From: an uncultured Nitratifractor sp.
Lineage (GTDB): Bacteria > Campylobacterota > Campylobacteria > Campylobacterales > Sulfurovaceae
DNA length: 36,945 nt
Direction: 5' to 3'
Assembly: GCA_947311565.1 (NCBI GenBank)
Contig: CAMZLH010000054.1
Span: 1-36,945, forward strand
Shown here: in pieces, positions 2,030 to 22,306 of the stretch
Position numbering within the stretch: position 1 is the stretch's first letter
Layout of the letters: every line of letters starts with the position of its first letter
Program-made: the position numbers and the translations under genes
The notes under the pieces: generated by a model
What the model was told of the DNA's origin: nothing
The model's database searches: none
What the model saw: the letters and a program-made list of their open reading frames with translations, nothing else

Positions 2030-3763
2030 CTATCTTGTTATAGATACATTCTTAAGGTCATGGTGAATTGGGTTTTCGTCATCTTCATCCATCGCTTTTG
2101 CTCCATCTAGTAGTATAGGAACAAAAATTAAAGATACAAATACTGCTGCTACTGTTCCAGAGATTAGCGCAACTCCTAAACCTCCAAATATTGGGTCTCC
2201 TGCTAGTAGTGCTGAGCCTAATATAATTGCAACTGCAGTTAGTAAAATTGGTTTTGCTCTTGTTGCACTCGATACTGCTATTGCTCTTCTTTTCTCCATG
2301 CCGTGAGCCTCTATTAAAGACTTTGCAAAGTCTATAAGAAGTAGTGAGTTTCTTGAGCTAATTCCCATTAGGGCAATAAAGCCAATAAGGCTTGTTGCTG
2401 TTAAGAAAAATACATCTGTAGTTACTAAATTTGCCACCCAGTGACCAACAATAACACCAATTATAGATAAAAAGCTACCTGCTAATACAATTCCACTTAA
2501 GGCGAAGCTTTTGTAGTAGATTACTAGCAGTAGAAATATTAGAACTAAAGCACCTATAAATGCTCCACCTAAGTCTCTAAATGTGTCTAGAGATACTTTC
2601 ATCTCTCCATCCCATCTAAGTAGATATTTTTTACCCGTTTTTTTATCTGTTAAGTGTAGATCGAACATATATGTTGTTATGCCTGGGTCTTTCTCTACCT
2701 TGTAACCTTTTTTACTAAAGTACTCTATCATTTTATCTCTTGCTTCAAGTAGTGGGTATACTTGCGACTCATTATCTGTTTCGGCTATTACATTAATAAG
2801 GCGTTTTAAATCTTTATGCATAATCATTGAATTAGAGTTTGTCTCTTTTATATCTACCACCTCTGTAAGTGGTACAAGCATACCTTTTTGATTCATTAAG
2901 TTCATAGAGCCTAATTTACTCTGCAGAGCCTCTTTAGTACTATTTTCAAACTTTTTTGTATCTTGACTTAGAGATAGAAATATATCTATCTGTCCAGCTT
3001 CGGTTTTAGAGTTTTTATGAGCAATTGCCATACCTTCGAAAGCAAGATAGATAATTTTATTAACCTGATCAACACTTAATCCACTTCTTGCTATTTTGTC
3101 GTTATTTGGAATAAGGCTATACTTTTTAAATATATCATCTGCCATAATATCTACATCTACAACCTTAGTTGTATTGCCTAAAACTTTTGCTGTCTCTAAG
3201 GCTAACTCTCTAATTTTATCTAAATCATCACCAGTTACCTCTACAACAATAGACGCCATTGTCGGAGGACCTGCAGGCTGCTCTATAAACTTAATAACAC
3301 TACCTTTAACCAAAGGCTCACACTCTTTTTTAATTACTGGGCGTAAGCGACTAACCATTGAGAAACTCTTCTCATCTCTTTCATGTTTATCTGTTAAGTT
3401 TACCGAAATCTCTGCAACATTTTCGCTACTTTTCATACTAGCACCTTTAACAAGACCTGCATAGTCTAGTGGAACACCCTCTCCCACATAAAGTACCATA
3501 TTGGTTATCTCTTTTTCGCTTTTTAGCTTATCTATAACACACTGTGCTACCTGCTTTGTCTGCTCTTTAGAGCTACCATTTGGTGTATCTACATAAACAG
3601 AGTATGTATTATCACTCTTACCTGGTAGCATTCTTGCTTTGACTAGATCTGCTGGTATCATTAAAACAGATAGAACCAATGCAACCAGAGTTAAAACAAT
3701 TACCATAAATTTTTTACTTTTCGATTGTAGTATGTTATATACTATATTTTCTAAATTACCCAT
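2030..3763 (-). CDS. RND efflux permease, C-terminal half
   Basis: 577 residues correspond to the second half of an AcrB-type resistance-nodulation-division transporter. They comprise an amphipathic linker, TM7 (around residues 18-40, VIVLTLVALVLSVLMIP), a large periplasmic domain (about 45-385), then TM8-TM12. The TM10 region reads SSRNSLLLIDFAKSL (about 469-483), with Arg where AcrB has the proton-relay Lys940; Arg here is common in related exporters. The ATG directly follows the TAG of the N-terminal half in the same frame, so the two would form one 1112-residue protein without that stop. GAGGAG nine bases upstream can serve as its ribosome-binding site. The substrate cannot be told from sequence. 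Confidence 0.88.
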   Translation of the reverse strand: MGNLENIVYNILQSKSKKFMVIVLTLVALVLSVLMIPADLVKARMLPGKSDNTYSVYVDTPNGSSKEQTKQVAQCVIDKLKSEKEITNMVLYVGEGVPLDYAGLVKGASMKSSENVAEISVNLTDKHERDEKSFSMVSRLRPVIKKECEPLVKGSVIKFIEQPAGPPTMASIVVEVTGDDLDKIRELALETAKVLGNTTKVVDVDIMADDIFKKYSLIPNNDKIARSGLSVDQVNKIIYLAFEGMAIAHKNSKTEAGQIDIFLSLSQDTKKFENSTKEALQSKLGSMNLMNQKGMLVPLTEVVDIKETNSNSMIMHKDLKRLINVIAETDNESQVYPLLEARDKMIEYFSKKGYKVEKDPGITTYMFDLHLTDKKTGKKYLLRWDGEMKVSLDTFRDLGGAFIGALVLIFLLLVIYYKSFALSGIVLAGSFLSIIGVIVGHWVANLVTTDVFFLTATSLIGFIALMGISSRNSLLLIDFAKSLIEAHGMEKRRAIAVSSATRAKPILLTAVAIILGSALLAGDPIFGGLGVALISGTVAAVFVSLIFVPILLDGAKAMDEDDENPIHHDLKNVSITR

Positions 3764-5371
3764 CTACTTAGTCTCCTCTTTACTCTTGTGCTGTTTATGC
3801 TTTGGCTTTTTAAGCAATTTATAACTTAAATATGGTGTAAATATATATGCAATAAACAAAGATGCAATAAGTGCTACAGGAACATTTAGTGGTATTGGTT
3901 TCATAAATGAACCCATCATTCCTCCAACAAACATCATTGGAACCATAGTTAATATAATTGCTAATGTTGCAACATTTGTTGGTGCTCCAATTTCGTCTGT
4001 TGCCTCTACAAGCAATACATCCATCTCTTTCTCATCTACATCGTGTGCATGTAGGTGTCTATGAATATTTTCAATAACAATAATAGCTGCATCAACCAAT
4101 AGCCCCAAAGAGAGCAAGAAGGCAAATAGAGTAATACGGTTTATCGTCTGCCCACCCATAAATGCAATAAATAGTGTAATTGCCAAAATTGCAGGAACTG
4201 TAAATGTAACAATAATTGACTCTTTAAATCCAAGTGCAAATACAAGCATTACTGCAATAATTAAAATTGTTATAAGTAGATGTTGAACCAACTCATTAAC
4301 TGCTTCATTTGCTCTCTCTCCATAATCTCTTGTTACTAAATAACCAATACCCTCTTTTCCAAGCTCCTCTTTATACTCTTCAAAATACTTCTCTACATCT
4401 TTTGCAACATAAACTGCATTAGTTCCAGCAAGTTTAGATACTGTAATTGTAACTTGCTCTTTTTGAGCAATATATTTGCCATCTTTCTCATTCTTATCTT
4501 TCATATCAATATATGATTTTTTAAAGTTTTGGTAATCTATTCCTCTCTCAACCTTTGCAACATCTTTTAGATATATTGGCGAACCCATATATGAAGCTAC
4601 AATTACATTTTGTAAATCTCTTACGCTCTCGATTGCATTTTTAACACCAAAAACAACTAACTTATTACCTTTTGTTCTACCCTTTACATCTGGAACATCA
4701 ACAGCAATTGACTGAACTGATTTCATTATCTGACCCATAGATAGATTATAAGCAGATAGTTTACCCATATCAACTTCTATATTAAATTGTGGCTTATGAG
4801 AGCCTTTGAGTGTTGTCTTTGCTACATTAGGAAGTGCATTTAAGTCTTGTTGCATTTTACGCATAATATCATATAGCTTCTCATAATTTACTTTTTGGCT
4901 ATCTTTAGAGTATAGAGCAACTGTTACGATTGGAATATCGATATCAATATCAAAAGGTTTAACTAAAGGTTGCATTGTACCTTTTGGCATCTGATCCATA
5001 TTTTGCATAACTTTATCATAAAGCTTAAGGTTAGAGTCTTCTCTTCTCTCTCCAATTTTATACTGAATATTTACAATACCTACATTATCCATTGCCATTC
5101 CATAGATATGTTCAATTCCTTTAACCTCTCTTAATCTTCTCTCTAGAGGGTTTACTATAACTTTTTCAACCTCAGATGCAGTAGCACCTGGTAGTGGAAC
5201 AATTACTGCACCACCACTAATGGCAATTTGGGGGTCCTCTTCTCTTGGCATTACTTGCAACGATATAAATCCTAGCAGAAGCAGAGCAATACCAAGAAGT
5301 GCAGTTAATGGATTCTTTAAAAACCCTTTAGCTAACTTTCCTGCTACATCTTTGGGCTCATAGTTAATCAT
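3764..5371 (-). CDS. RND efflux permease, N-terminal half
   Basis: 535 residues cover TM1 (about 19-41, ending in the typical QVMPREEDP), the first periplasmic porter/docking domain (motifs VPLPGATASEVEKVI, NPLERRL) and TM2-TM6. TM4 carries GLLVDAAIIVIEN; the Asp near residue 427 is equivalent to AcrB Asp407, while the adjacent Asp408 is Ala, as also seen in CusA-type pumps. The protein ends in a basic cytoplasmic tail (KKPKHKQHKSKEETK) at the point where intact RND pumps continue through the TM6-TM7 linker. Together with the next gene it should form the inner-membrane proton-driven pump. Its ATG overlaps the adaptor gene's stop by 4 bp, implying coupled translation. Confidence 0.9.
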   Translation of the reverse strand: MINYEPKDVAGKLAKGFLKNPLTALLGIALLLLGFISLQVMPREEDPQIAISGGAVIVPLPGATASEVEKVIVNPLERRLREVKGIEHIYGMAMDNVGIVNIQYKIGERREDSNLKLYDKVMQNMDQMPKGTMQPLVKPFDIDIDIPIVTVALYSKDSQKVNYEKLYDIMRKMQQDLNALPNVAKTTLKGSHKPQFNIEVDMGKLSAYNLSMGQIMKSVQSIAVDVPDVKGRTKGNKLVVFGVKNAIESVRDLQNVIVASYMGSPIYLKDVAKVERGIDYQNFKKSYIDMKDKNEKDGKYIAQKEQVTITVSKLAGTNAVYVAKDVEKYFEEYKEELGKEGIGYLVTRDYGERANEAVNELVQHLLITILIIAVMLVFALGFKESIIVTFTVPAILAITLFIAFMGGQTINRITLFAFLLSLGLLVDAAIIVIENIHRHLHAHDVDEKEMDVLLVEATDEIGAPTNVATLAIILTMVPMMFVGGMMGSFMKPIPLNVPVALIASLFIAYIFTPYLSYKLLKKPKHKQHKSKEETK

Positions 5372-7862: not shown

Positions 7863-9020
7863 TTAAAATCTCATAGATAATGATATTGATCCTTTTGCAA
7901 ATGATGGACCTTTTTTCTTTCTCCAGAAAAATCTAGTTGGAGTATAGTAGTTGGAGTACATTATTGTTAATCTTCTTTTTTTACTATCTTTCCAGCCAAA
8001 TGAGAAAGCATAATCTGGCTCTTGAGATGTCTGCTTATTAAGCTTAGAGTATAGATATACAGAACCCGAGGCATAAAACTTTTTATATATAAACCCTTTT
8101 AGTGAAAGTGTTAATTGGTCTTGTGATGTATGCAGATACCTTTTATACTGTACAGAGCCTAATAGTTTATATATTTTTTTACTTGCAGATAGAGATAGAT
8201 AAGCTTTTTTAGACTTAGGAGTATACTTTAAAGATCCTCTTAAACTAACATCTTTTATCTTAGTTTTATAAGATAAGTCCCAAGTACCTGAACTAAAATT
8301 AAATCTATTATATCCACTATCTGGGCTAAATTTATTATCAGAGTAGTTTGAATAGACTAAACTCCAAGTATCTTGATGCCAATCAGAATAACCAAACGTA
8401 TAAGAGAAATCTGGCTCATAATATTTATTGTGCACACTATTTAATGTTTTTGCAAATGTTGCTCCAATAAAAAAATATTTTATAGGAGAGATATTAAGAG
8501 TTAGCTTTGCTTGCTCTCTACCACTATCTTCACCTATAATATTCTCTAAAGATGTAGAGTAACCTAAAGAGTAGCTAAACCACTTACTTAATGGCTTAAA
8601 AAATCTCTTTTTCATCTCTTTATCTTTAACTAATTTATTAGACTTTTGCTTAGATTTTTTACTATTAGTACTATTAAAATTGTTAGAGTTAAGAACTTTT
8701 CTTCTAGATTGTTTCTCCACACTCTCTTTACGGCTCTCCATCTCACTATCTATCTCATTTTGCATAAATAGTGATAGCTCATCACTCATCTCTTCTAACT
8801 CTTTAATATTCGCTATATCTACAACTATATCCTCTCTTTTTTGAGTCAAATTTTTATCTAAGAGAATAGTTTTACTATTACTACTATTTTTATCACTACT
8901 TACATTTGAATCTGCTCTACTGTTATTATCTATCTCTTTAAATATTGAGGCTATTGATTTATCTATAATCCACTGGCTATTTAGTGCTTTTTTTGCTAAT
9001 TCCCTGCTTCTTTTTTGCAC
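7863..9020 (-). CDS. Outer-membrane beta-barrel domain, probably expressed as a frameshift fusion
   Basis: 385 residues counted from the only start-like codon, GTG at 9020. The first ~140 residues are Lys/Glu/Ser-rich and helical. The rest is a run of amphipathic beta-strands with many Tyr/Trp/Ser (YSLGYSTSLEN, YTFGYSDWHQDTWSLVYSNY, GTWDLSYKTKI) and ends in SISLSMRF, a C-terminal Phe typical of BAM-inserted barrels. Size and pattern recall YaiO-like barrels, but I am not certain of the family. An outer-membrane protein needs a signal peptide and this frame has none; there is no ATG or good ribosome-binding site. The frame stays open upstream to 9149 and overlaps the end of the DUF3131 gene, so a -1 shift at the A10 run would fuse them into about 1414 residues. 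Likely role: the export pore or anchor for the polysaccharide. Confidence 0.7.
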   Translation of the reverse strand: MQKRSRELAKKALNSQWIIDKSIASIFKEIDNNSRADSNVSSDKNSSNSKTILLDKNLTQKREDIVVDIANIKELEEMSDELSLFMQNEIDSEMESRKESVEKQSRRKVLNSNNFNSTNSKKSKQKSNKLVKDKEMKKRFFKPLSKWFSYSLGYSTSLENIIGEDSGREQAKLTLNISPIKYFFIGATFAKTLNSVHNKYYEPDFSYTFGYSDWHQDTWSLVYSNYSDNKFSPDSGYNRFNFSSGTWDLSYKTKIKDVSLRGSLKYTPKSKKAYLSLSASKKIYKLLGSVQYKRYLHTSQDQLTLSLKGFIYKKFYASGSVYLYSKLNKQTSQEPDYAFSFGWKDSKKRRLTIMYSNYYTPTRFFWRKKKGPSFAKGSISLSMRF

Positions 9021-9097
9021 TAACTCTTTTGCTAACTTTAGTGCCTTTAATCTCTTTTGGGCTAGCTTTTTCTCTTCTATAATCTTTTGTAATAGGG

Positions 9098-12000
9098 CTA
9101 TTTTTTTTTTATTTTTTGAGCATTGACAACTTTTTTTAAACTTAAATAGTCACTATATGCTTTATTTACTACACTATCTATGCTATTTTTATATGGTATG
9201 TGATAATTATAGTTATAGTGACCACTAGAGTATACAAATTTAGTAGAGTCTATAGCGCCCTCTTTTATCTCGAAAAACTCTGGAAATGACTCCTCTTTAC
9301 TCTCTAGAAAAAATATTAAATCTTTTTTACTATTAAAGCTACCACCCCTTACTACAAACTCTTTACCTACTCTCTCTAATCTTTTATATGGTAAATCTTT
9401 AGGCAACTTTTGCATTAACATTTGCGCTTTATGTCTTAACTCTATAGGTGTACTCTCTAAATAGAAACTGCTATTGGTATCGATTACATCTAGATGGACA
9501 CTACTTAATAGTGAGCTATGTTTACTATAGTAATAGTTACCAAATCGTTTATAGAATATAGACTCTAATACTGCGCTATTTGTAGATATATTAAGAGATC
9601 TATTTACTCTGTTGTTATGAGAGTAAACACCGCCATACCAACCTTCTTTACTGCTACAATTAGAGTCTACAACTTCTAAGAGTTTAGCACTATAACTATC
9701 TGTATATCCATATAGAGCATCATATATAAATGCTGCTTTTGTACTAATTAACTTACTCTTAGATACAGACTTCTTCTCTCTATTTAAATCACTCCATTTT
9801 TTACCATTATTATAGATTGTATTCTCTATAAAGTATGGCTTTTTATCTAATGCTTCACTTGTTGATGTCGAGATTTTATGATTAATCGTATATTGCCCTT
9901 TTAGACTTAAATATATATTTGATGAGTAGTGCTTATACTTAATATAGTATGGATGCTCTAACATACTCCAGAGATAGCTTTCACCATTAGTTATCTGATA
10001 CTTATGCCCCATTGGTACCTCATAGTTATTAACAGCTTTATAATCTAAATTTCTCTCATCATAAAGATAGCTATAAGATTTTATATTAAATAGATTTAGT
10101 GCATTAAAAATATAGTACTCTTTTGCTGGATCTTTTATATCTGTAAAACCACCTTTACTCTTTCCATCAAAATATCTATTTTGCATACTTTTTTCTAAAA
10201 CTGCTCTCTTAAAATCCCATTTTGATATAATATCAAATACACTCTCTCTATATTGTGGATATGACTCTTCTAGATGATATAATGCAGTCATAAGTTTTGC
10301 TATAGAGTATAGCTCCCAACCATTACCTGTTGGGCTATCTTTACCTGCACTTGTAACCATTTTACCTGTTAGAGCATTATAATATAGGTTTGGCAACTCA
10401 TTATGGTAAAGTTTCATACTACTTAAAGAGCTCAAAACTTTAGAGATCTTACCGTTAAACTCCTCTTCATCAATTATCTCTAATTTAAAAGCAGATATTG
10501 TAGAGATAATAGCTTTTCCTATATGTGCTGGTTTTATAATTTTATACTTGTTTAGTCCATTAACATAACCTGTCTCTTGATGATAGTTATTTTCAAAATA
10601 TCTCCAAGCTACCTTTGCATTCTCTATATCTTTTGTACTATTAAGCTCTCTTGTCATTAGTGTATCGAATGGCTCTAAAATTGTCATTTGATTATCTGTT
10701 GGCAGACACCTAAAGTTATTTACATTATTTCTATAGTAATCATATGCTCCTCTATTTTCTATCTTATGCAGACTCTGTAAAGAGCCCATTTTAGAGGACA
10801 ACATTGCCTCTAGTATAATAGAGTTAGTATTGAGAGTCATAGCCTTGTTCTGTCCTGGTCTTTTCTCGTAAATACCTGCATAGTAGCCCTTTTTTGGATC
10901 ATAATTATTTTTAACATAATTAAATACTTTATTAGAGTATGGTGTATCAAATAGATATCTCATACCAATTGCAGCTTTAGTACTTACTGTTTTATAGTTA
11001 TCGTAATCTTCACCTTTTTGGTTAATTGTTTTCCAAGCTTCTCCACCTGTATATACAGTATTAAATAAGAAGTATGGTCGAGTATCTATATTATCTTCAG
11101 TAACAGCTGTAAGTTGTCCTGTACGCTCATATCTTCTCTTTTGCACCTCATACATATTTTTAATATATCTACCTGACTCATTATCATCTACTCCATACTC
11201 AAAACCAAGATACCAAAATGGCTCACTCTCGATAAAGTTAGAGAAGAAGGGTCTTGTATCTGTTGGTATCTTCACACCATAAACATCTACCTCTTTTACA
11301 AACTTATATGAGCGCGCCTCACTTGCATTATGGTGCCAAAGTTCATAACCTCTAGCAAGATACTCTTCGTATCCTGTAAGTGCTTCATGTCTAATATGAA
11401 GTTTTCCATTCTCCATTGAACCACCATAGAGATCACCCTCTACACTTAATGCTCTACAGTATCTATATCTAAGTAATAGTTTTTCAATTTGTGGCGCTAA
11501 GGTCTCTTCGCACTGCTCCACCATATTTAGTGACGACAATAACCTTGCTAAGTCTGCAGCTGACCAACCTGTACCATCTTTTTGTACTTTATTAACATAG
11601 TCGGTCATTTTAGCTGAGTTAGTATTATATGTTTTATTTGGTAGTTCGTTATTAAATATTTCCATTTTTTGCATAGTTTTTAAGAAAGTGTTCATCATTT
11701 TCTCATACTTTTCTTGCGTAATAATATTAAACTTTCTAGCTGCATATATTGCATATACTGCATTTGCCCAATCCCAGGTAGCAGCAGATGGATACTTATG
11801 TGCTGCGGCTGTTAAACCTGTTTTTTTATTAAAGTTATTCTCTATATATTTCCATGCAATACGAGCCATCTTTATCTCCTCTTTTGTAGGAGCACACTTT
11901 AACTGACAAGGAGAAGTTAATGGTGTAGGGTATATACACTCACCTGGTTTTATACCAATATCGTTATATAGATCTAAAGAGTCATTACTATCTGTAACAG

Positions 12001-12106
12001 CTATATCTACTCTATTTTTACTATTTAAAGTATATACAATATAGGAGTTAAATAGTAGTATCAATAGTAAAATTACTGCAATAATTAATTTTATATTTTT
12101 TCTCAT
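9098..12106 (-). CDS. Membrane-anchored protein with two DUF3131 domains
   Basis: 1002 residues: an N-terminal signal or anchor helix (about 7-26), a short Cys-containing linker (C57, C67, C71), DUF3131 domain 1 (about 75-445), DUF3131 domain 2 (about 490-880), and a ~120-residue tail ending in a Lys-rich helix. DUF3131 proteins are found beside cellulose-synthase-like glycosyltransferases and are predicted helical, (alpha/alpha)-barrel-like glycan enzymes; the activity is not established. Domain 1 keeps the residues shared with the one-domain paralogue in this operon (W111-D112, GWSAAD with D185, LTAVTED with E337/D338), whereas domain 2 has lost them. The start is firm: AAGGAG six bases before the ATG. 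Its TAG follows directly after ten A, the proposed slippage site into the barrel frame. Confidence 0.82.
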   Translation of the reverse strand: MRKNIKLIIAVILLLILLFNSYIVYTLNSKNRVDIAVTDSNDSLDLYNDIGIKPGECIYPTPLTSPCQLKCAPTKEEIKMARIAWKYIENNFNKKTGLTAAAHKYPSAATWDWANAVYAIYAARKFNIITQEKYEKMMNTFLKTMQKMEIFNNELPNKTYNTNSAKMTDYVNKVQKDGTGWSAADLARLLSSLNMVEQCEETLAPQIEKLLLRYRYCRALSVEGDLYGGSMENGKLHIRHEALTGYEEYLARGYELWHHNASEARSYKFVKEVDVYGVKIPTDTRPFFSNFIESEPFWYLGFEYGVDDNESGRYIKNMYEVQKRRYERTGQLTAVTEDNIDTRPYFLFNTVYTGGEAWKTINQKGEDYDNYKTVSTKAAIGMRYLFDTPYSNKVFNYVKNNYDPKKGYYAGIYEKRPGQNKAMTLNTNSIILEAMLSSKMGSLQSLHKIENRGAYDYYRNNVNNFRCLPTDNQMTILEPFDTLMTRELNSTKDIENAKVAWRYFENNYHQETGYVNGLNKYKIIKPAHIGKAIISTISAFKLEIIDEEEFNGKISKVLSSLSSMKLYHNELPNLYYNALTGKMVTSAGKDSPTGNGWELYSIAKLMTALYHLEESYPQYRESVFDIISKWDFKRAVLEKSMQNRYFDGKSKGGFTDIKDPAKEYYIFNALNLFNIKSYSYLYDERNLDYKAVNNYEVPMGHKYQITNGESYLWSMLEHPYYIKYKHYSSNIYLSLKGQYTINHKISTSTSEALDKKPYFIENTIYNNGKKWSDLNREKKSVSKSKLISTKAAFIYDALYGYTDSYSAKLLEVVDSNCSSKEGWYGGVYSHNNRVNRSLNISTNSAVLESIFYKRFGNYYYSKHSSLLSSVHLDVIDTNSSFYLESTPIELRHKAQMLMQKLPKDLPYKRLERVGKEFVVRGGSFNSKKDLIFFLESKEESFPEFFEIKEGAIDSTKFVYSSGHYNYNYHIPYKNSIDSVVNKAYSDYLSLKKVVNAQKIKKK
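9101..9110 (-). other. A10 homopolymer: proposed -1 slippage site
   Basis: On the coding strand the DUF3131 frame ends AAA-ATA-AAA-AAA-AAA-TAG, with ten consecutive A before TAG. Slipping back one base reads ATA-GCC and enters the barrel frame, which is open to 7863. The junction then reads as one Lys/Leu-rich helix. Real slippage, a strain mutation or a homopolymer sequencing error could each explain it. Confidence 0.55.
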
Positions 12107-12147: not shown

Positions 12148-13698
12148 TTACTTCGATTTATCGGTAAATAAACTAATATTAGACATAATTTTACTATTTA
12201 TTTTTTTATAACTTGGTATTAAGTTACAACTAGTAGCACTAATTGGGTGCGAAGCACCTTTTATAAATATAGTTGTGATCTTATTTTTACTTTTAACTGT
12301 TTCTAAATCTAACTTTTTTAAATTATCAAATGTTACTAAAGTATCATCTATACTATGAATCGCTAATATTGGTATGTTAAAATTATCTAAGTGATCTATT
12401 GGCGAGTATTTATGTAACCATTCTAATCTCTTTTTGTCATCATTAACTCCAGACAACTTTATCTGCTTATTTTCTGGGTATAGAGTTAAGTCACTACTCA
12501 TGCTATTTAAGAGAACCAATTTAATACCCTTAGATATACTTTTATCCATTTTAGATATAGCCATAAATAGTAACTGTGCTCCTGCAGAATCACCCATAAC
12601 AACAGTTTTTTGTGAGTTAGCTCTATACTTAGATGCATTATTAATTAAATATTCAATTACCCTCTTAACATCATCTATCTGTTTAGATATATGCATATCT
12701 TTTGAACCTAATAGTCTATAGTTAACTACTGCTGCACTAAAGCCAATATCTGCATAATATTTGGCATAGCCTCTAAATTGAGACTTATCTCCACCACTCC
12801 AGCCTCCTCCATGAACATATATAAAGAGACTATTGTTGTTAGACTCCTTTTTATAGTATATATCAAACTTTTGCAGTTCACCCTCTGCATATGGCTGATC
12901 AAGCTCTTTAGAGAGCTTATTTGTAGGTCGATATAGTATCTTACCAAGATGTAGACGAATTTGTGGATAGTAACTACCTAATGTAGATTTGACTACTCTT
13001 TTACTCTGAAGATTAGATATTACAGATTTTAAATATCGATTAATCTCCAGCTCTATCTTCTGTTTATCTATAGCAAAATAGTAGTTGTAATTAAGTGAAA
13101 GGGGTAGAGATATTTTATCTATATCATCTCTTCTATCTTTATTGGATTTGGTATCAATATATAGAGTATTAGGAAAGTACCAGTCTCTTTGAATAGCAGG
13201 ATCAAGTGCATTAGATATCTCATATAGTGAAGTATCTAATTTTAACTCTTTGTAGTAGCCATCTATCGCATTACAATACTCTAAAACTCTTCTTTCTTTT
13301 CGACTTTTACTAAAGCAATTTTTATATATATTTAGAGGAGTATTCTCTAATATAAATGCCTCTACACTCTTTTGATAATCTCTACTAAGATTATGATAAG
13401 CAACAGCAGCTAAAGCAGCATTAATCCCCTTTGCATATATAATTAAATTTGGATACTCTTTACCCTCATCATTAGTTATTTTTTTAATACTATCTTGTAT
13501 AGTAAAAACTCTCTCTTCTATTGTGATCTTACTATTAAATGTTACTGTTGTGATATCTATATTTTTATCTATATCTACACCATTACAACTATTAACCTTA
13601 TAGTACTCACTATCTTCTATGCATAGCATTTTAGTAGTTGCAGAAAACAGTAAAATAGATGTAGATATAGCTACAGATACAACTCTAAAAAGATTCAA
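12148..13698 (-). CDS. Secreted alpha/beta-hydrolase esterase (HSL/BD-FAE-like)
   Basis: 516 residues with a signal peptide (about 1-25). The C-terminal half is a complete esterase of the hormone-sensitive-lipase type: oxyanion motif HGGGWSGGDKSQ, nucleophile elbow GDSAGAQL, Asp in HSIDDTLVTF, His in GASHPIS. The N-terminal half (about 45-210) seems hydrolase-like but degenerate: LIIYAKGINAALAAVAYHN looks like an elbow with Asn in place of Ser. The gene sits between the OpgC-like acyltransferase (11-base gap) and the DUF3131 gene (41-base gap). I infer that it removes ester substituents from the operon's polysaccharide; a peptide or lipid ester substrate is possible. The family is confident, the substrate is not. 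Confidence 0.8.
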   Translation of the reverse strand: MNLFRVVSVAISTSILLFSATTKMLCIEDSEYYKVNSCNGVDIDKNIDITTVTFNSKITIEERVFTIQDSIKKITNDEGKEYPNLIIYAKGINAALAAVAYHNLSRDYQKSVEAFILENTPLNIYKNCFSKSRKERRVLEYCNAIDGYYKELKLDTSLYEISNALDPAIQRDWYFPNTLYIDTKSNKDRRDDIDKISLPLSLNYNYYFAIDKQKIELEINRYLKSVISNLQSKRVVKSTLGSYYPQIRLHLGKILYRPTNKLSKELDQPYAEGELQKFDIYYKKESNNNSLFIYVHGGGWSGGDKSQFRGYAKYYADIGFSAAVVNYRLLGSKDMHISKQIDDVKRVIEYLINNASKYRANSQKTVVMGDSAGAQLLFMAISKMDKSISKGIKLVLLNSMSSDLTLYPENKQIKLSGVNDDKKRLEWLHKYSPIDHLDNFNIPILAIHSIDDTLVTFDNLKKLDLETVKSKNKITTIFIKGASHPISATSCNLIPSYKKINSKIMSNISLFTDKSK

Positions 13699-13709: not shown

Positions 13710-14924
13710 CTATCTAGGTATTACATTATATAGAACTTTATTCTTAACCATAATCCACATAAATGCAAATACTAATGTATGGCCTAAAGTATTAATCCAA
13801 AAATTATCTTGATGGAAAATAGCAATATTTGCAATAACTATACATGCATAGACATGCAAAATAAATACATATAAAGATGCCTGACCTATCGGAATAAAAA
13901 ACCATCCAAACAACTTATTAATAGGTTTCCATAAATATGAGAGCATTGCATAAGAGACAATAAGTACGACAAAATCATTTATGAGTCTACCTATACCTAA
14001 TGTATTCTTTGGAAAAAACATATGGTAGTAGTGCCTAAATGTCTCAGGTGATATATAGTGTAATTTCAAATAATCTGGTATATCTTTTAATGGATTATTA
14101 TAGGTAAAAAATAGAAATAGAAAAAATAGTAACAGAATAAATGAGAAGACTATTCCACCTAATTTAGTATGAAAAAAGTTCCAAATTTCGTCTCTATAGT
14201 AGCCTATACTTAAACCGTGTATAAATAGTATTTGCCAAGTTAAAAGTGGAAAAGCATATTCAAATTGTGCTCCAGTAGGTCGAACATGAAATCCATTATT
14301 TGCAAAATATATAATCCAACTGAGTGCAAGTACTACCTTCACTTTATCTTTGCTAAGTAACCACAAAACAAATGGAGACAACATAAGTAAAAAAACATAT
14401 AGTCCTAGTATCTGAAACTGATGTGGTCCATACTGTAACATAAGATATTTAGCTATAATCTTATTGTAGTGTGTTGCAAATTGCTCCATATTTGGATATA
14501 AATTATAAACTTTACCACTATATGTAGTAAATGTCATAGCAGCATGTGCATCTATGTATGGTATTAAATCTATTAATAATACAGATAAAATAACAAATAA
14601 AGATGTGCGATATAGTAAGAAAGAGCGATTATACTGCTTATTAATTGTAGATGCCAAACCATCATGCGCCATGCGCATTCTAGATAACATTCCAAGTATT
14701 AATCCAGATAATAAAACAAAACCTTCTGCACCAGTTACAACACCAAATCTCTCCCAAGCTATATAGTCATATGCAGATATTATATCAATATGTACAGCTA
14801 TGAGTATTAGCATTACCATACCACGAATAAAATCTACTCTTAAATCTCTCTTTCCACCACCTTCTTGATAGTGCCACTGATTCATAAAATTTAACATTAT
14901 TGCAGCTTTAGGCTCTTTTTCCAT
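13710..14924 (-). CDS. OpgC-like membrane acyltransferase
   Basis: 404 residues, polytopic (about ten membrane helices), matching the OpgC family that transfers succinyl groups to periplasmic glucans in proteobacteria. Typical features are the N-terminal RDLRVDFIRG before TM1, the His in IAVHIDII, then AEGFVLLSGLILG and a run of hydrophobic helices to the C terminus. The acyl donor and acceptor are inferred from the family: an O-linked acyl group, probably succinyl, on the glycan made by the neighbouring synthase. It lies 14 bases after the one-domain DUF3131 gene and 11 bases before the esterase, so it is an operon member. Length is normal. Confidence 0.83.
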   Translation of the reverse strand: MEKEPKAAIMLNFMNQWHYQEGGGKRDLRVDFIRGMVMLILIAVHIDIISAYDYIAWERFGVVTGAEGFVLLSGLILGMLSRMRMAHDGLASTINKQYNRSFLLYRTSLFVILSVLLIDLIPYIDAHAAMTFTTYSGKVYNLYPNMEQFATHYNKIIAKYLMLQYGPHQFQILGLYVFLLMLSPFVLWLLSKDKVKVVLALSWIIYFANNGFHVRPTGAQFEYAFPLLTWQILFIHGLSIGYYRDEIWNFFHTKLGGIVFSFILLLFFLFLFFTYNNPLKDIPDYLKLHYISPETFRHYYHMFFPKNTLGIGRLINDFVVLIVSYAMLSYLWKPINKLFGWFFIPIGQASLYVFILHVYACIVIANIAIFHQDNFWINTLGHTLVFAFMWIMVKNKVLYNVIPR

Positions 14925-14938: not shown

Positions 14939-16252
14939 CTACTTACTAGGTATCATTTTAACTAATGGACCATGCTCTTTATACATAAGAGACTCTAATA
15001 TAATGGCATTTGTATTACAAGTTAAAGATTTATTAAGCTTTTCATCCTTTTCATATATACCTGTGTACCAACCTCTAGGACTCTTTAAGCTATTAACTTT
15101 TTTAATCAATTTCTTTGTGTACTCTGTATGATATAAAGCATCCATAGCAAATGAAGCTTTTGTACTTAGCTGCTTCATATCATTATGTACTTTACCATTA
15201 TCATCAATCGCTACCCACTCTTTTCTATTAACATATATACAGTTATAGATAAAGTATGGTGCTTTATCTAAGTGGTCTTCTGTTACTGCTGTAAGAGTGC
15301 CTGTCTCTTTATATCTTGCCTCTTGTGCCGCATATAGTCTATATGAGAACTCTTTAGAAAAGTAATCCCAACCAAACTCTAAACCATCTAACATATATGG
15401 TTCCATAAGAACATAGTTATTCGCAGTAGAGTGTTTTTTATCTCTTCTATCGTAAGGTATAGAGTAACCCTCTATATCTGTAAACTCTAAAAATTTATCA
15501 TATCTTAGAGCATTAGTAATATCAACCCCAAAACTAGCAAACATTTTAGAGGTGTACTGCTCGTAACCTAAACGACCCTCTTGTAGCAAAGACTCTTTAC
15601 CATTTTTAACTATAGCACCAAATAGAGCACCCTCTTTAGTCATATCTTTTATACTCCATCTTCTAAGAATAGAGTCTATTTTATTACTAAATTTAGGTTC
15701 ATTGTATTGTAAATAAGCTAAAGGAATTAACAATCTACCAATATCTATTGCCGACCAGCCGATACCTTTTTTTGTTGCTTTATTTTCGTAGTTGCTCATC
15801 TCTAATGTCTGAGTATTATATACCTTATTTGGAAGAGCACCTCTATATAATTTAATTTTAGAAAATGTATCTAAAATTTTGTTCATTCTATCTTCATAGA
15901 CATTTTCTTCTATAATATGAAGATTTTTTGCAGAAATTAGTGCCATCATATAGTTTCCACTATCCCAAAGTGTTGTAGATGGAAAGTTATCAACAGAGTT
16001 AACTAATCCAGTACTTTCTTGGTAGTTATTTTCAAAATAGCTCCATGCAACTTTAGCAGCATCGAGTTCTTCTTTATTAAGTTTTCTTACTGTTATATTT
16101 AGTTCTGGTGCTACTTTATCTTTAATTACAACCACTCCTAATCCTTGTCTTTTCATATCTATTCCATTTAAAAAATATATCACAACCGAACCAAAAATAA
16201 GTGCTAATAAAAAGACAATATGGTGTCTTGCTCTTTGTAAACTTTTATTCAT
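14939..16252 (-). CDS. Membrane-anchored one-domain DUF3131 protein
   Basis: 437 residues: one N-terminal anchor helix (about 11-29), a linker, then one DUF3131 domain (about 60-432). It aligns well with domain 1 of the larger paralogue: LWDSGN (D97), ALPNKVYNTQTLEMSNY, GWSAIDIGRLL (D170), GYEQY, LTAVTEDHLDKAPYF (E325, D326), STKASFAMDALY, GWYTGIYEK and CNTNAIILESLM. The repeated Asp/Glu residues and aromatic positions suggest a glycan-binding or glycan-cleaving periplasmic enzyme, but no activity is established for the family as far as I know. It starts 3 bases after the glycosyltransferase stop, which suggests that it works with the synthase. Confidence 0.83.
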   Translation of the reverse strand: MNKSLQRARHHIVFLLALIFGSVVIYFLNGIDMKRQGLGVVVIKDKVAPELNITVRKLNKEELDAAKVAWSYFENNYQESTGLVNSVDNFPSTTLWDSGNYMMALISAKNLHIIEENVYEDRMNKILDTFSKIKLYRGALPNKVYNTQTLEMSNYENKATKKGIGWSAIDIGRLLIPLAYLQYNEPKFSNKIDSILRRWSIKDMTKEGALFGAIVKNGKESLLQEGRLGYEQYTSKMFASFGVDITNALRYDKFLEFTDIEGYSIPYDRRDKKHSTANNYVLMEPYMLDGLEFGWDYFSKEFSYRLYAAQEARYKETGTLTAVTEDHLDKAPYFIYNCIYVNRKEWVAIDDNGKVHNDMKQLSTKASFAMDALYHTEYTKKLIKKVNSLKSPRGWYTGIYEKDEKLNKSLTCNTNAIILESLMYKEHGPLVKMIPSK

Positions 16253-16255: not shown

Positions 16256-18010
16256 TTATCCTTCAAATTTATATAGGGCTGCTTGTACAATAGCCCAAAG
16301 TGATGTAATGTTAAAAAATGACCACATTAAATTAACTACATATCCTGCTAAATATACTCTATCGCCTATAATATATAGAGTTGCCGAGTATACTATTGCA
16401 ACTAAATAGAGTGCTATAATTGCCAACTGTATGCGAACTAATGGTAAAAAATTACCAGATTTAGCAGTTTTAGCAGTAACTACAAACCGTATAGGTTTGC
16501 GTCTTGCAACATCCCAAAAAGCTCTTAATACTATAGGAAATATTGCAATAAAAAATTGACCACCTCTGTTGGAGTTAATACCCCATGTTGCTATCATTAA
16601 AGCTAGTTGATTAAAAAATAAAAATGGTATTAAGTGTATAAAAAAATCCATTGAATAGCTTTGCACTGGTGCAATATTTGTAAACATATAGATAATTGGA
16701 GATGCTAAAAGAATCATAAGCCAAATTGCACCTGTATATGACCAAAATGTACTAAAATACATCAATTTTTGCCCAAGAGAGAGTCCAGATTTAAAGAACT
16801 GACCAAACTCTTTTGTAACTAAATCTATAGTACCGCCCGCATATCTAAACCTCTGTGCACTCCAAGTAATTAGATCTAAAGGAGATAACATTTTAGACTC
16901 AACATCTGGGTGTAGTACAGATTTATACTTCTTTTGCTTATGTGCATGTACAAGCAAAGATGTATAGATATCTTCAGAGGTATGGTAAGAGATATACTCT
17001 ACATCTATCTTCTCAATAGCACTCTTTTTATCTTTTGCTTCGATAACCCTATTTGCCCATCTAGTTATAGCAACACGACGCAGTGCGCTTGCTCTATGAA
17101 TAGATGTAGCACCACAACAAAAAGATGCATTGTAGTTATTTCTTCTTCTTTGTATTACATCAAAAAAAACGGCAGGGTCATTTGCAAATACATCTTCACC
17201 TACTTTTATTTTTCCCATTACCTTTTGTGTTGCTCTAGCTATATATTTACCAACAACTCCATATCTACGACTCCAATGATTATCTAAGCTCTCACCGGTA
17301 GTCAAGTCACAAAACCACTGAGGTGTTTGTACCCAAGCAACAGCATCATCTTTAAAGTAGCCTAGTGTATTTAGCAATATATTAGGGAATAGTCTAGTAT
17401 CAGAGTCTATTATAACAATAAAATCACCTAGTGTTTGATCCATGGCATATGTAATTGCACCAGCTTTTCTACCTTTGGTACTATCTCTTAAAATTTGAGG
17501 TACTCCCTCCTCTTGTGCCATTTTTGTCATATCATCACTATTACTATCATCAAGTAGATATAAGTTTACACTCCAAGTGGGTAACTTTTTAACTGATTTT
17601 GCCGCCTTTATTGTCTCTCTTACTAAAGATGGATCTTCATTAAATACAGGTATATAGATATCTATCTTAAGAGGATTATCTTTATACTCTGATTTTAGAC
17701 TCTTCTCTACAATTTCATCTTTTGTTGTAGGTGGAGTCTTCTTAGGTGTATCGTTAGTTTTCCAAAAATTGATAACTACTAAGATAGTACCTATAAACAT
17801 CATACTTTCAGCAAATGCTAGTGGTATTGCAAACCACAAGGCATCTGTATTTAAGGACTCTGTCCATCTATATTTTAGATACCAAATACCTAGCATCAAA
17901 GCAATAACTGCAAAAAACTGAAATAGCAGTTGCATCACTATTGATTGCTTCTGTGGTGGCTCTGGTACTCTCTTATCAAACCTATCTTCTAAAAAATAGA
18001 GTTCATCCAT
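16256..18010 (-). CDS. Processive family 2 glycosyltransferase (BcsA/MdoH-like)
   Basis: 584 residues with two N-terminal membrane helices (about 25-47 and 59-82), a cytoplasmic GT-A domain and several C-terminal membrane helices (about 415-445, 455-478, 485-500, 525-580). Catalytic motifs are present: DD (154-155), DSD (202-204, metal binding), QTPQWF, TSED (344-347, general base) and QRFRY (386-390, where most synthases have QxxRW). FVVTAK at 509-514 matches the BcsA gating-loop pattern FxVTxK. The protein ends at the last membrane helix, so there is no PilZ domain and no direct c-di-GMP switch. It should polymerise a nucleotide-activated hexose and push the chain across the inner membrane. 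The product is probably a beta-glucan, given MdoH/OpgC likeness, but linkage is unknown. Confidence 0.86.
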   Translation of the reverse strand: MDELYFLEDRFDKRVPEPPQKQSIVMQLLFQFFAVIALMLGIWYLKYRWTESLNTDALWFAIPLAFAESMMFIGTILVVINFWKTNDTPKKTPPTTKDEIVEKSLKSEYKDNPLKIDIYIPVFNEDPSLVRETIKAAKSVKKLPTWSVNLYLLDDSNSDDMTKMAQEEGVPQILRDSTKGRKAGAITYAMDQTLGDFIVIIDSDTRLFPNILLNTLGYFKDDAVAWVQTPQWFCDLTTGESLDNHWSRRYGVVGKYIARATQKVMGKIKVGEDVFANDPAVFFDVIQRRRNNYNASFCCGATSIHRASALRRVAITRWANRVIEAKDKKSAIEKIDVEYISYHTSEDIYTSLLVHAHKQKKYKSVLHPDVESKMLSPLDLITWSAQRFRYAGGTIDLVTKEFGQFFKSGLSLGQKLMYFSTFWSYTGAIWLMILLASPIIYMFTNIAPVQSYSMDFFIHLIPFLFFNQLALMIATWGINSNRGGQFFIAIFPIVLRAFWDVARRKPIRFVVTAKTAKSGNFLPLVRIQLAIIALYLVAIVYSATLYIIGDRVYLAGYVVNLMWSFFNITSLWAIVQAALYKFEG

Positions 18011-20157
18011 TATCTCTCCTTTTCAAACTTATAACTATTATTAGCAATATCTACACTCTTTTTTTTCAAATATAGATCTAGACTCTCTATACTATTTTGA
18101 TTAAGTGTAGCTACTTTAACTACACTATCGGCTGGTATCGAAATATCAAACTCCTCTTTAAATGTATGCTCTCCACTCTTATATCTAGCAACTACTTTCG
18201 CACCATTAAGTGCTTGAAGCTTATCATTAACTACATATATCTCTACCTCTCCACCCTCTATTTGCTTAGCAACTACTATAACTGGTGCATAGCTACTCTT
18301 TAGTGCGTTATATCCAGCTTTAGGTACTCTATAGTAATCTACAATACCCCAATTCATAGATGGCCAACCTTCGTTAAACATAAATTGGAAAATTCCCGTT
18401 GTATGGCTATATTTTTGCACTCTTAGCATCTCTACTGTAAACTTAATTAAAGAGGCTTGATACTCTTGAGACTCTTTTATAAACTCTTTTATATCACCTC
18501 TGTATTCGATTCCATTTTTACTATTCCAATTGAACTGAAAGTTATGATACTCCCACTCTTTTTTAGCCTTTTTACCTTTTGGTTTTAGATATTTTTTAGG
18601 TAGTATTCTCTTTAGGCTATCATAGTCTGGCAAAGCTTGCGCACCATATTCGCTAACAACTGCTACTTTAGAGTCTTTAGCAAAATCATGATAATCTCCA
18701 CTATACCACCCAAACCATGGATGTTCAAGCGAAGATGATATCTTCTTAATCATATGATAACTATCATAATTAGATATAGTTGTATAGAGCTTATCATCTA
18801 ACTCTACATTCTCTTTACCACTATAATCTCTATATTTCCACTTCATCCACTCAGAGTTCCAAGGTGGCTCATTATGCATAGACCATATAAATATTGAAGC
18901 ATGGTTATATAGTTTATCTACCATATCTTTGGCCTCTTTAATAGCTAAACTATGCATCTCTTTATTATCTATATATCCCCATTGTAAATTATAATCTTGC
19001 CAAACTAAAAAGCCCATCTCATCACATAACTCATAAAATCTCTTAGGCTCAATATGCGCATGTACTCTAATAGTATTTATATGCGCATCTCGCATAAGCT
19101 CTAAATCTTTTCTTAGCTTAGCAATACTCATCTCACTCATATATTGACTAGAGATATAGTTAGTACCCTTTATATATAGAGATTTCCCATTTAAAATAAA
19201 TCTTTTATTACTATCTTGAACCATAGATTTAAGTCCAATATTTTGACTATATATAGTATTATCAATTTTTATCTTAAGTGTATATAAATTAGCATCTCCT
19301 CTATCATGTGTACTCCATAGCTTTGAATTAGGTAAATTTATCTCTAAATGATGCACTCCAAAGGCGTTAAAATTAAACTTTTTAGAGTAAGAGTCTCCTT
19401 TAAAATTATATGGAACAACTTCTATCTCTATATTTTTAGGAACACTACTCATGGCATCACTATAGATAAACGATTTTTTACTACTGCTATATAGTTTTGT
19501 AATATTAAAATCTATCGATAGAGAGACATTACTATTATCTAAAATTTTTGGTGTAATTTTAAGATTATCTAGCTTTATACTATTAAGACTCTCTATAGAG
19601 ATATGGTTCCATATTCCACCAGAGTTTCTATCTTGACCCTTAGCAGACCATGCTCCACCAGCTCTTGTATCGTGGTGAGAAAATATGCCACGAAGTAGAG
19701 TCTTGTGTAGACTATAGTGCTCTGGATAGTTCTCTAATGGTGAGTTTACTCTAACTTCTATTTTGTTTATTCCTTTAACAAGATATGGTGTGATATCAAA
19801 TTTAAACTCTTGAAAATAACCACTATGAGAACCAACATAGTTACTATTTACCCATATATCACACTGGTAATCTACGCCTTCAAAATTAATAAAATGGTGC
19901 TTAGCTCTAGGTAGAAGCTTACTATTAAAACTCTTCTCAAACCAGACAATACCTGCATGGTTTAGACCCTCTTTATACCAGTTGTTTGGTAGCTGCATGC
20001 TGCTCTCTTTGCCGCTAAATATATATCTATAATCTAGTGTATGAGGCAAGTGCTCAACATGGTAGAGCCATTTGCCATCTAAAGATACTTTTTTAGGGAA
20101 AGTATCTGAAAATAGTATGCTATATAGGGCAAAGAATAGTACTAAAAACTTTTTCAT
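18010..20157 (-). CDS. Secreted glycoside hydrolase family 2
   Basis: 715 residues with a signal peptide (KKFLVLFFALYSILFSDT). The GH2 layout is complete: an N-terminal jelly-roll sugar-binding domain (about 25-195; GIVWFEKSF, CDIWVNSNYVGSHSGYF), an Ig-like domain (about 196-315), and a TIM barrel (about 318-600) with acid/base Glu430 in SMHNEPPW and nucleophile Glu503 in VVSEYGAQ. A further C-terminal domain follows. Known GH2 activities include beta-galactosidase, beta-glucuronidase and beta-mannosidase; I cannot choose among them. In this operon it probably trims or edits the exported polymer in the periplasm. Its ATG overlaps the preceding stop (TAATG) by one base, and its own stop overlaps the glycosyltransferase start. 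Confidence 0.87.
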   Translation of the reverse strand: MKKFLVLFFALYSILFSDTFPKKVSLDGKWLYHVEHLPHTLDYRYIFSGKESSMQLPNNWYKEGLNHAGIVWFEKSFNSKLLPRAKHHFINFEGVDYQCDIWVNSNYVGSHSGYFQEFKFDITPYLVKGINKIEVRVNSPLENYPEHYSLHKTLLRGIFSHHDTRAGGAWSAKGQDRNSGGIWNHISIESLNSIKLDNLKITPKILDNSNVSLSIDFNITKLYSSSKKSFIYSDAMSSVPKNIEIEVVPYNFKGDSYSKKFNFNAFGVHHLEINLPNSKLWSTHDRGDANLYTLKIKIDNTIYSQNIGLKSMVQDSNKRFILNGKSLYIKGTNYISSQYMSEMSIAKLRKDLELMRDAHINTIRVHAHIEPKRFYELCDEMGFLVWQDYNLQWGYIDNKEMHSLAIKEAKDMVDKLYNHASIFIWSMHNEPPWNSEWMKWKYRDYSGKENVELDDKLYTTISNYDSYHMIKKISSSLEHPWFGWYSGDYHDFAKDSKVAVVSEYGAQALPDYDSLKRILPKKYLKPKGKKAKKEWEYHNFQFNWNSKNGIEYRGDIKEFIKESQEYQASLIKFTVEMLRVQKYSHTTGIFQFMFNEGWPSMNWGIVDYYRVPKAGYNALKSSYAPVIVVAKQIEGGEVEIYVVNDKLQALNGAKVVARYKSGEHTFKEEFDISIPADSVVKVATLNQNSIESLDLYLKKKSVDIANNSYKFEKER

Positions 20158-21335
20158 TATCTATTTATGGTCATCTCGCCAATATTTTTAATCATCTCCA
20201 TAATATCTTTTTGCTCTTGGCTCATTACTGTTTCATCTTTTCTAGCATCATCAACTAAGAAGTTCATATCTGACTCCTCAATATCTATTGAGCTTCCAAA
20301 TGGATTAATAATATATTTTCCTGCAATAATCTTCTCTTTAATCTTTGCATGTGCAGTTACTTTTGTGTATCCTAATATGACACTTTTATCAATTGTAACA
20401 CCCTCTTTTATAACAGATCCAGAACCAATCATTGTAGGACCAATAATTTTCGCACCCTTCTCTATGCGAACACTACTTCCAATATATACAGGACCCTCAA
20501 ATGTTACTTCATCTAAATCTATATCACAGTTAATTCCCATCCATAAATCTTTTTTAACCTCTTTTCCATAAGGCACTAAATCATTCACCTCTTTATTTAC
20601 CAGCATTGTATTAGCTACATAGAAATCTTTAGTAGATCCTACATCTACCCATTGAAATTTTGGTGCTGTTGCAAAAAATGGTAAACCCTTCTCTACTAAA
20701 AGTGGTAGTAATTCTCCACCAATATCAAATTCACCCTCATTTGGAATATAGTCAAAGACTTCTGGATTAAAGATATAGATACCTGTATTAATTATATTAC
20801 TCTTAGCCTCTTCTACTTTTGGTTTCTCTTGAAACGATAATACTCTCTTATCATCATCTGTAACAACAACTCCATATTTATATACTTCATCTTTTGGTAC
20901 CTCTTTACAAATAACTGTAGCGACTGCACCCTTTTCTTTATGATAATTCATAGCTTCAGTTAAATCTATATCTATTAATGCATCACCACAAATAACTAAA
21001 AATGGTTCATCAAAAAAGTTTGAATAATCTTGCACTTTCTTTAAACCTCCAGCAGAGCCTAATCCAACTGGTACGATCTCTCCCTCTTCTAGTTTTCCCT
21101 CTAAAGAGTAAGCAATTTGCATACCATAATCTGCACCATTTTTATAGTGATCTTCTATTGTATTTGCCATATACCCTACTGTAACAATTACTTCATTAAA
21201 ATCATGTTTTTTTAGTAGATCTAAGAGATAGCTCATTATTGGTCTCTCTGCAATTGGTACCATTGGCTTTGGTAGCATATAAGTTAGTGGTCTAACTCTT
21301 GTTCCTTTTCCTCCAGCTAAAATAACTGCTTTCAT
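20157..21335 (-). CDS. Sugar-1-phosphate nucleotidyltransferase with hexapeptide repeats
   Basis: 392 residues. The N-terminal nucleotidyltransferase domain (1-235) has the signature AGGKGTRVRPLTYMLPKPM, VICGDALIDID (metal-binding Asp), EKPKVEE, NTGIYIF and WVDVGSTKDF. The C-terminal part (about 250-350) is a left-handed beta-helix of hexapeptide repeats (VYIGSSVRIEKGAKIIGP, MIGSGSVIKEGVTI). It converts a hexose 1-phosphate and an NTP into an NDP-sugar. The layout fits mannose-1-phosphate guanylyltransferase or glucose-1-phosphate nucleotidyltransferase families; the base and sugar cannot be fixed from motifs. It starts inside the end of the kinase gene (4-bp overlap), and supplies the donor for the synthase two genes downstream. 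Confidence 0.87.
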   Translation of the reverse strand: MKAVILAGGKGTRVRPLTYMLPKPMVPIAERPIMSYLLDLLKKHDFNEVIVTVGYMANTIEDHYKNGADYGMQIAYSLEGKLEEGEIVPVGLGSAGGLKKVQDYSNFFDEPFLVICGDALIDIDLTEAMNYHKEKGAVATVICKEVPKDEVYKYGVVVTDDDKRVLSFQEKPKVEEAKSNIINTGIYIFNPEVFDYIPNEGEFDIGGELLPLLVEKGLPFFATAPKFQWVDVGSTKDFYVANTMLVNKEVNDLVPYGKEVKKDLWMGINCDIDLDEVTFEGPVYIGSSVRIEKGAKIIGPTMIGSGSVIKEGVTIDKSVILGYTKVTAHAKIKEKIIAGKYIINPFGSSIDIEESDMNFLVDDARKDETVMSQEQKDIMEMIKNIGEMTINR

Positions 21336-21727
21336 TCTTTATCCTTTTTAAATATAAATACTATTTTACTTTTTTCAGTATATATCGTATCACTTAATAA
21401 TACTGCAAGCTTTAAACCACGACCATTTTCTGCTAGATAATCCATATTTTTTGCCTCATCTTTTGTAGGTAAAACAATTTCAACACTACCCTCGTCAACA
21501 ATTGTAAACTCTATTAAATCAGCACTCTCTTTGAGTGTTACATATACTTGCTTACTCTTATCAAGAGAGTTAGCATGAACAATAGAGTTAGTAACTAACT
21601 CTTGATTTATTAGTAGTATATTATTGTGTAATTTAAGACTAATATCTTTTGGTAAATTACGTTTTAGCCACTCTTGTAAATTTACCAACTCACTTAATTG
21701 GCTATCTAGCTGTATAGATTGCAACAT
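21332..21727 (-). CDS. RsbW-like anti-sigma-type serine kinase (HATPase)
   Basis: 131 residues forming a single GHKL ATPase domain of the RsbW/SpoIIAB type: N box INQELVTNSIVHAN (about 45-58), VDEGSVEI, and glycine box NGRGLKLAVLLSD. It has no histidine-kinase phosphoacceptor domain. In known partner switches such a kinase phosphorylates a STAS antagonist on Ser and binds an alternative target when the antagonist is phosphorylated. The partner STAS gene is immediately upstream (12-base gap) and the PP2C phosphatase gene is divergent. No sigma factor gene is nearby, so its output is unknown; it may act on the polysaccharide enzymes rather than on transcription. The 4-bp overlap with the nucleotidyltransferase ties it to that operon. 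Confidence 0.82.
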   Translation of the reverse strand: MLQSIQLDSQLSELVNLQEWLKRNLPKDISLKLHNNILLINQELVTNSIVHANSLDKSKQVYVTLKESADLIEFTIVDEGSVEIVLPTKDEAKNMDYLAENGRGLKLAVLLSDTIYTEKSKIVFIFKKDKE

Positions 21728-21739
21728 ATTAAAGCTATT

Positions 21740-22060: not shown

Positions 22061-22079
22061 TTTATTCTCCTTAATATTT

Positions 22080-22095
22080 GCTATAATATATACTG
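22080..22095 (-). promoter_or_regulatory. Candidate -10 region for the polysaccharide operon
   Basis: On the minus strand GCAGTATATTATAG supplies TATATT/TATTAT-like -10 sequences about 25-30 bases before the STAS start codon. No clear -35 box is visible. It is the only gap in the region suitable for a promoter, since the ten genes downstream are separated by at most about 41 bases or overlap. Confidence 0.35.
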
Positions 22096-22267: not shown

Positions 22268-22306
22268 AGAGTTAATAAGCAATAAAAAATTTAAATAAGA
22301 GGTAAA

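Follow-up and report, generated by a model that had tools for sequence, protein, structure and literature searches.

How does an outer-membrane barrel reach its membrane when its reading frame seems to offer neither a usable start nor an export signal? The question is raised by the window analysed here, a stretch of 36,945 nucleotides that is contig C54 of a draft genome (G000; 73 contigs, 1.69 Mb) of an uncultured Nitratifractor sp. On its minus strand, the frame of a two-domain DUF3131 protein ends AAA AAA AAA TAG, and a barrel frame that is open from 9149 to 7863 overlaps it. A preliminary description of this DNA proposed that the two are joined by a -1 shift at the run of ten A. Based on the anatomy of the locus, the conserved -1 relation, the selection on the barrel frame and the predicted folds, all established below, we consider it very probable that they are one gene with two products made through a conserved -1 recoding site. 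The slippage itself, the ratio of the products, the machine that slips and the role in glucan metabolism are inferred, and experimental evidence is lacking throughout.

Anatomy of the DUF3131/barrel junction

The features of the locus are as follows.

9098..12106, minus strand: zero-frame ORF, short product of 1002 aa (membrane anchor, two DUF3131 domains, SPOR-like region)
12008..12106, minus strand: N-terminal hydrophobic segment, signal or anchor (from the sequence and the N-termini of relatives)
10793..11869, minus strand: DUF3131 domain 1, PF11329 (domain match and fold model)
9542..10621, minus strand: DUF3131 domain 2, PF11329 (domain match)
9179..9439, minus strand: SPOR-like region, inferred by position (shared end motif; Pfam SPOR match in relatives only)
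9150..9152, minus strand: stop closing the -1 frame upstream, which bounds the region where a -1 shift can work
9101..9110, minus strand: putative A10 slip site, T10 on the plus strand, with A_AAA_AAA in phase twice
9098..9100, minus strand: zero-frame stop TAG, immediately 3' of A10
7863..9149, minus strand: -1 frame ORF of 428 codons, a Lys-rich linker followed by the outer-membrane barrel
7866..8615, minus strand: predicted 14-strand β-barrel with an OmpG/CymA-like fold (model, pLDDT 88.9)

The A10 run, the TAG straight after it and the opening of the barrel frame up to 9149 were all confirmed from the sequence. The joined protein of about 1414 residues that had been proposed is likewise borne out by the coordinates, which give 1002 + 412 = 1414 residues for a -1 slip at A10. 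Apart from the hydrophobic segment at 12008..12106, neither product shows an export signal.

The starts of the barrel frame were described less accurately. It had been said to contain no ATG, but ATGs are present at residues 121, 129, 137 and 179 of 428. It had also been credited with a single, poorly sited GTG; further TTG and GTG codons exist, so that only the poor siting holds, in that neither a good Shine-Dalgarno sequence nor a signal peptide was found at any start codon of the window barrel frame. The first of these starts lies 80 nt past the zero-frame stop and has a 3-nt Shine-Dalgarno match. Among related barrels that are split from the enzyme in the same manner, no conserved start position was found; in one of them (L033) the first start falls inside the barrel domain, and none of the 12 split Campylobacterota barrels, the window included, has a start codon with a hydrophobic signal segment, as the proposed absence of a signal peptide would have it. 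The frame at 7863..9149 is probably reached only via a shift, and as the barrel is without a start and signal of its own, it would be exported solely as the tail of the enzyme.

Both the run and the overlap are rare in this genome. In 317,334 bases, comprising the window and 17 stretches of the same 1.69-Mb genome, there are 762 A/T runs of length 6, 303 of length 7, 57 of length 8, 6 of length 9 and one of length 10, and this last is the DUF3131/barrel junction. Only four A10 sites exist genome-wide: two are genic (the junction and dnaX) and two lie between ORFs. Within the same 317 kb, 94 pairs of ORFs overlap on the same strand (ORFs counted from stop to stop, with 100 codons or more, and not taken from gene calls), and the junction is the only pair in which the downstream ORF has no start up to 60 nt past the upstream stop. 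Elsewhere in the window (2030-5371) an RND pump is encoded as two in-frame genes, with TAG at 3764-3766 followed at once by an ATG and with AGGAG upstream. We rejected it as a recoding case, for it looks like an ordinary gene pair with a Shine-Dalgarno sequence.

The junction in related genomes

A search with the single barrel protein identified it in 6 of 60 genomes, its own included. It is present in 14 of 175 genomes of the family, where the distribution is patchy, and in 10 of 398 and 7 of 397 genomes sampled from the order and the phylum, respectively. The named genome collection, in which all relatives are metagenome-assembled according to their record titles, contains 17 barrel loci, mostly from Sulfurovum, with one from Hydrogenimonas, one from Campylobacteraceae and four from Desulfovibrionaceae. 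The junction is readable in 14 Campylobacterota loci (the window and L026-L038). In 12 of these (window, L026-L033, L035-L037), which span the three named families Sulfurovaceae, Hydrogenimonadaceae and Campylobacteraceae, the barrel ORF overlaps the two-domain DUF3131 ORF in the -1 frame; in the other two (L034 and L038) both parts are fused in one ORF of 1381 or 1455 codons, and in no case does the barrel lie in the +1 frame. The proposed joining of enzyme and barrel by a -1 shift is thus supported by 12 of 14 junctions split in the same sense, and the single-ORF fusions indicate that the DUF3131 part and the barrel can form one chain. Fused homologues lacking the A run had been anticipated as support; fused homologues exist, but both keep the run (A11 or A10).

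The least secure of the 14 rows is L031, which has an N run inside the barrel ORF; the frame read immediately past its junction nevertheless holds, because the same peptide occurs in the same frame on both sides of the N run. In L029 the contig covers no more of the DUF3131 frame than its end. Excluded from the survey were L053/L022 (G160, broken frames), L054/L024 (G163, a fragment), L025/L010 (a second G030 fragment), the separate genes of Desulfovibrionaceae (L039-L042) and repeat records, recognised by identical contig or ORF lengths (L005-L009, L011-L021, L023, L043-L052, L055). In G160 an A10 is present (L053:4132-4141) without a simple -1 join, and there are several frame breaks, one of them inside the barrel; the copy seems to be either decaying or poorly assembled. 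The G030 fragment (L025:1480-1794, G030:C26) is a second, partial barrel copy; the complete copy of this genome lies on another contig.

In the overlap bounded by the -1 stop and the zero-frame stop, all 12 split junctions contain A_AAA_AAA or A_AAA_AAG in phase with the zero frame. Six of them have A10 as their longest run, four have A9 and one has A11; the last, L030, has A6G, which leaves it as the only junction, split or fused, without a run of at least nine A. Because any run of nine or more contains an in-phase heptamer, the phase is informative for L030 alone. There the junction reads GCA AAA AAG AAT TAG, and A_AAA_AAG is followed by a 3-nt spacer and a stem-loop; the 55-nt fold has an energy of -19.0 kcal/mol (z -3.2), and 2 of 200 shuffled sequences fold as well. 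No clear structure was found in the 55 nt downstream of the remaining 13 junctions (z -2.0 or weaker), of which L037 comes closest with a weak z of -2.0. The heptamer A_AAA_AAG also occurs in L027 and L032, strong structure being confined to L030, and the window has A_AAA_AAA with TAG abutting the run and no strong structure. Structure downstream of L028 was not counted, since its z of -3.1 at 70 nt falls to -1.3 at 55 nt.

Judged by substitution rates, the barrel frame is under purifying selection even where it is split off. In four split/split pairs (L035/L036, L028/L030, L028/L029, L029/L030) its dN/dS is 0.15-0.18, and the DUF3131 frame comes close to this with 0.10-0.17, likewise from four pairs; where one partner is the fused L034, two comparisons give 0.16 and 0.25 for the barrel, and the comparison of the window with L026 is saturated. 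In a tree of 18 barrels, many inner branches of which are unresolved, the four Desulfovibrionaceae sequences group together (100/100) and the fused copies are nested in the split group as two separate changes. From this nesting the -1 split looks ancestral in Campylobacterota, as far as the tree allows.

Could the break instead be an artefact, a phase-variable tract or a step in the loss of the barrel? Loss of one A from a fused gene through a sequencing or assembly error has in its favour that long A runs are error-prone, that the named relatives are metagenome assemblies and that A11 in L034 stands against A10 in L035, the former fused and the latter split, with barrel proteins that are 99% identical. 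We nevertheless regard it as very improbable, because 11 further A9/T9 runs lie in ORFs at the same 14 loci without breaking a frame, whereas all four junction A9 runs are split, a contrast of 1 in 1365 (hand arithmetic; rows not fully independent). Moreover, L030 has just A6, and the direction is always identical. The chance of 12 breaks in 12 having the same direction is 1 in 4096 for equal directions and independent rows, which is too strong as the rows are related; by about seven lineages (our count) it is near 1 in 128. The pair L034/L035 could equally speak for a contingency locus, in which the DNA run gains or loses As to give ON (fused) or OFF (enzyme only) cells, and so could the instability of poly-A runs and the phase variation discussed in PMC3711429 for poly-A/T stretches of surface-protein genes. 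Simple phase variation of this kind remains unlikely given that the shift is one-sided: random length change should also give +1 frames, but 12 junctions are -1, two are in-frame and none is +1. Furthermore, L030 keeps the -1 relation without a long run, through a ribosomal-type heptamer and stem-loop, and selection acts on the barrel frame among split copies. As L034 and L035 demonstrate, the number of As varies among close relatives or among their assemblies, and DNA length variation cannot be excluded as a further layer.

It is also conceivable that enzyme and barrel are separate proteins, the barrel being translated alone by reinitiation or from an internal start. Start codons do occur within the window frame, and standalone barrels with signal peptides of their own, which had been named as a refutation of the -1 join, are present in all four Desulfovibrionaceae loci (with a strong Shine-Dalgarno sequence in L039 and L041). 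However, such barrels are absent from the 12 split Campylobacterota junctions, and the late, weakly sited first start of the window without a signal peptide, the first start inside the barrel domain of L033 and the lack of a conserved start position make separate translation there a poor explanation, which we give very little weight. Decay of the barrel is harder still to credit: a patchy distribution and the broken appearance of L053 and L054 might suggest a gene being lost, but the low dN/dS among split copies, barrels intact across families and an identical -1 break everywhere are at odds with it. Around the Desulfovibrionaceae barrels there are several single DUF3131 genes, and GT2 and STAS genes adjoin in L040-L042.

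Putative polymerase slippage or ribosomal shifting

With recoding of one gene as the preferred reading, a fraction of expression would slip by -1 at the A run, either because RNA polymerase adds an A or because the ribosome slips on A_AAA_AAA/G. For the members with A9-A11, including the window, we lean slightly to the polymerase, and both may act; for L030 we lean strongly to the ribosome. The polymerase is favoured by the 11 of 12 split sites with at least A9, which is beyond the ribosome's need and occurs where such runs are scarce, and by the late A10 in dnaX of the genus, while the lack of strong downstream structure within 55 nt at 13 of 14 junctions disfavours ribosomal shifting. The ribosome is favoured by the single direction together with the dnaX-type signal in L030. 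According to PMC3711429, a single shift direction among orthologues points to ribosomal and not transcriptional shifting; its expectation of both directions, an inference rule and not a strict definition, is not met here, as only -1 is found.

The dnaX A10 is present in all four genomes of the genus that were examined (G000, G003, G005, G011). Elsewhere there is an A10 in G119 and an A9 in G029 and in both G102 copies; ten other dnaX ORFs that were read have no run of at least nine, and the ORF of G160 is too short to tell. In the same genome as the window the run is located at L073:1501-1510 (G000:C26:21279-21288), at codon 473 of 544, and the gain or loss of one or two As would truncate DnaX within a few codons. 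In Thermus, transcriptional slippage at an A9 in dnaX is reported to yield a truncated DnaX (PMC1088944, PMC5009743). By analogy, the dnaX A10 is likely a site of Thermus-type slippage giving two DnaX forms.

Predicted products, operon and known parallels

Standard decoding would yield a periplasmic protein that is anchored in the inner membrane and carries two DUF3131 domains of glucanase fold, to which a SPOR domain is added in most relatives tested (PF05036 above cut-off in four of five proteins, the window copy being the one without a match). SPOR domains bind peptidoglycan. The slipped product would continue through the Lys-rich linker into the 14-strand outer-membrane barrel. As the window copy has a hydrophobic N-terminal anchor, and inspection by eye shows one in most relatives, the short form is expected in the inner membrane and periplasm, whereas the long form should span on to the outer membrane (predicted locations). 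If this is true, one continuous chain of the long form would run from the inner membrane through the peptidoglycan layer to the outer-membrane barrel.

PDB sequence searches gave no match for the DUF3131 protein, and the barrel profile gave only marginal matches (E about 0.04, C5a peptidase); the single DUF3131 protein searched against plasmid records showed the domain to be present in many other bacteria. The folds come from predicted models. DUF3131 domain 1 adopts an α/α6 fold, as in SGL clan glycoside hydrolases, and superimposes on 8wy1 with Z 34.2 (rmsd 2.8, 343 aligned) and on β-1,2-glucanase structures with Z about 32. Despite this likeness the identity in these rows is 9-14%, and catalytic residues were not mapped; E239, F286 and Y367 of XcSGL are given as conserved residues of the SGL clan in PMC12102758. 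The barrel model, with 14 strands of at least three residues, matches CymA with Z 15.5 (rmsd 4.4, 217 aligned) and OmpG with Z about 14. Here the identity is 4-10%, and OmpG and CymA are free monomeric porins, whereas the present barrel is predicted to be attached to an inner-membrane-anchored enzyme.

The genes of the same operon lie next to the enzyme gene.

12148..13698, minus strand: BD-FAE-type esterase
13710..14924, minus strand: OpgC-type acyltransferase
14939..16252, minus strand: single-domain DUF3131 protein
16256..18010, minus strand: GT2 glucan-synthase-like glycosyltransferase (best NCBIfam match CelA, cellulose synthase, below cut-off)
18010..21335, minus strand: GH2-like protein and sugar nucleotidyltransferase

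Several of these neighbours are also kept adjacent in relatives. Together (GT2, DUF3131, OpgC, esterase, GH2-like protein and nucleotidyltransferase) they suggest that the operon makes, trims and exports a substituted β-glucan, the substrate being inferred. The likely role of the recoded gene would then be in making or exporting the β-glucan-like polymer, with some enzyme copies tied to the pore and most of them free. BcsZ and BcsC, which appear lower in the fold-match lists of the DUF3131 and barrel models, offer a similar combination of a glucan-acting α/α barrel and an outer-membrane pore beside a GT2 synthase, but they are separate proteins in cellulose secretion. BcsC has TPR repeats and a larger barrel. 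If the predictions hold, the locus suggests that Sulfurovaceae have a glucan pathway not characterised so far, in which DUF3131 is a domain of glucanase fold.

Mechanisms of this kind are already known from dnaX and from Citrobacter tssM, the closest worked case being tssM1 of Citrobacter rodentium. In that gene, according to PMC4256274, an A11 precedes an early stop, slippage adds As to give 20-25% long form, and short and full-length forms are both needed at a set ratio. Common to both are an A run just before an early stop, a gene for an envelope protein and a short and a long form, which in our case are predicted. The tssM1 arrangement was reportedly found in only two tssM genes, whereas here the -1 arrangement is the rule of the family, and the long part of TssM1 is a periplasmic domain where ours is an outer-membrane barrel. 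In E. coli, dnaX is shifted by the ribosome on a heptamer followed by a stem-loop. Like the present family as we read it, dnaX relies on slippage at a poly-A run in certain species and on a ribosomal signal elsewhere, a contrast that L030 forms here with its sisters L028 and L029; it differs in that the dnaX shift yields the shorter form, and the shift here (12 of 14) the longer one. In the literature, supplements of which were not searchable, no report of a DUF3131-barrel recoding gene was found.

We further propose, tentatively and with some doubt, that in the whole family the recoding device fixes the stoichiometry of free and pore-linked glucan enzyme, that the barrel is exported only via the slip, and that lineages have swapped the slipping machine while keeping the same two products. 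The preliminary description spoke of a possible switch, and switch is perhaps too strong a word, a fixed ratio being just as likely. If the proposal is true, the machine depends on the lineage, with RNA polymerase acting on A9-A11 and the ribosome on A_AAA_AAG plus a stem-loop; it would offer an example from nature, next to dnaX, of one gene family in which slippage by the polymerase and shifting by the ribosome may substitute for each other. A cellular, non-mobile gene family would also be added to the few conserved bacterial recoding genes, bringing a two-product logic to the cell envelope. Annotation pipelines will give two genes at such loci, one of them for an outer-membrane protein without a signal peptide.

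Finally, the polysaccharide operon is flanked in the window (21332-23464) by genes for a STAS protein, an anti-sigma-type HATPase and a response regulator with a SpoIIE phosphatase domain, which suggests that the operon is under partner-switch control.
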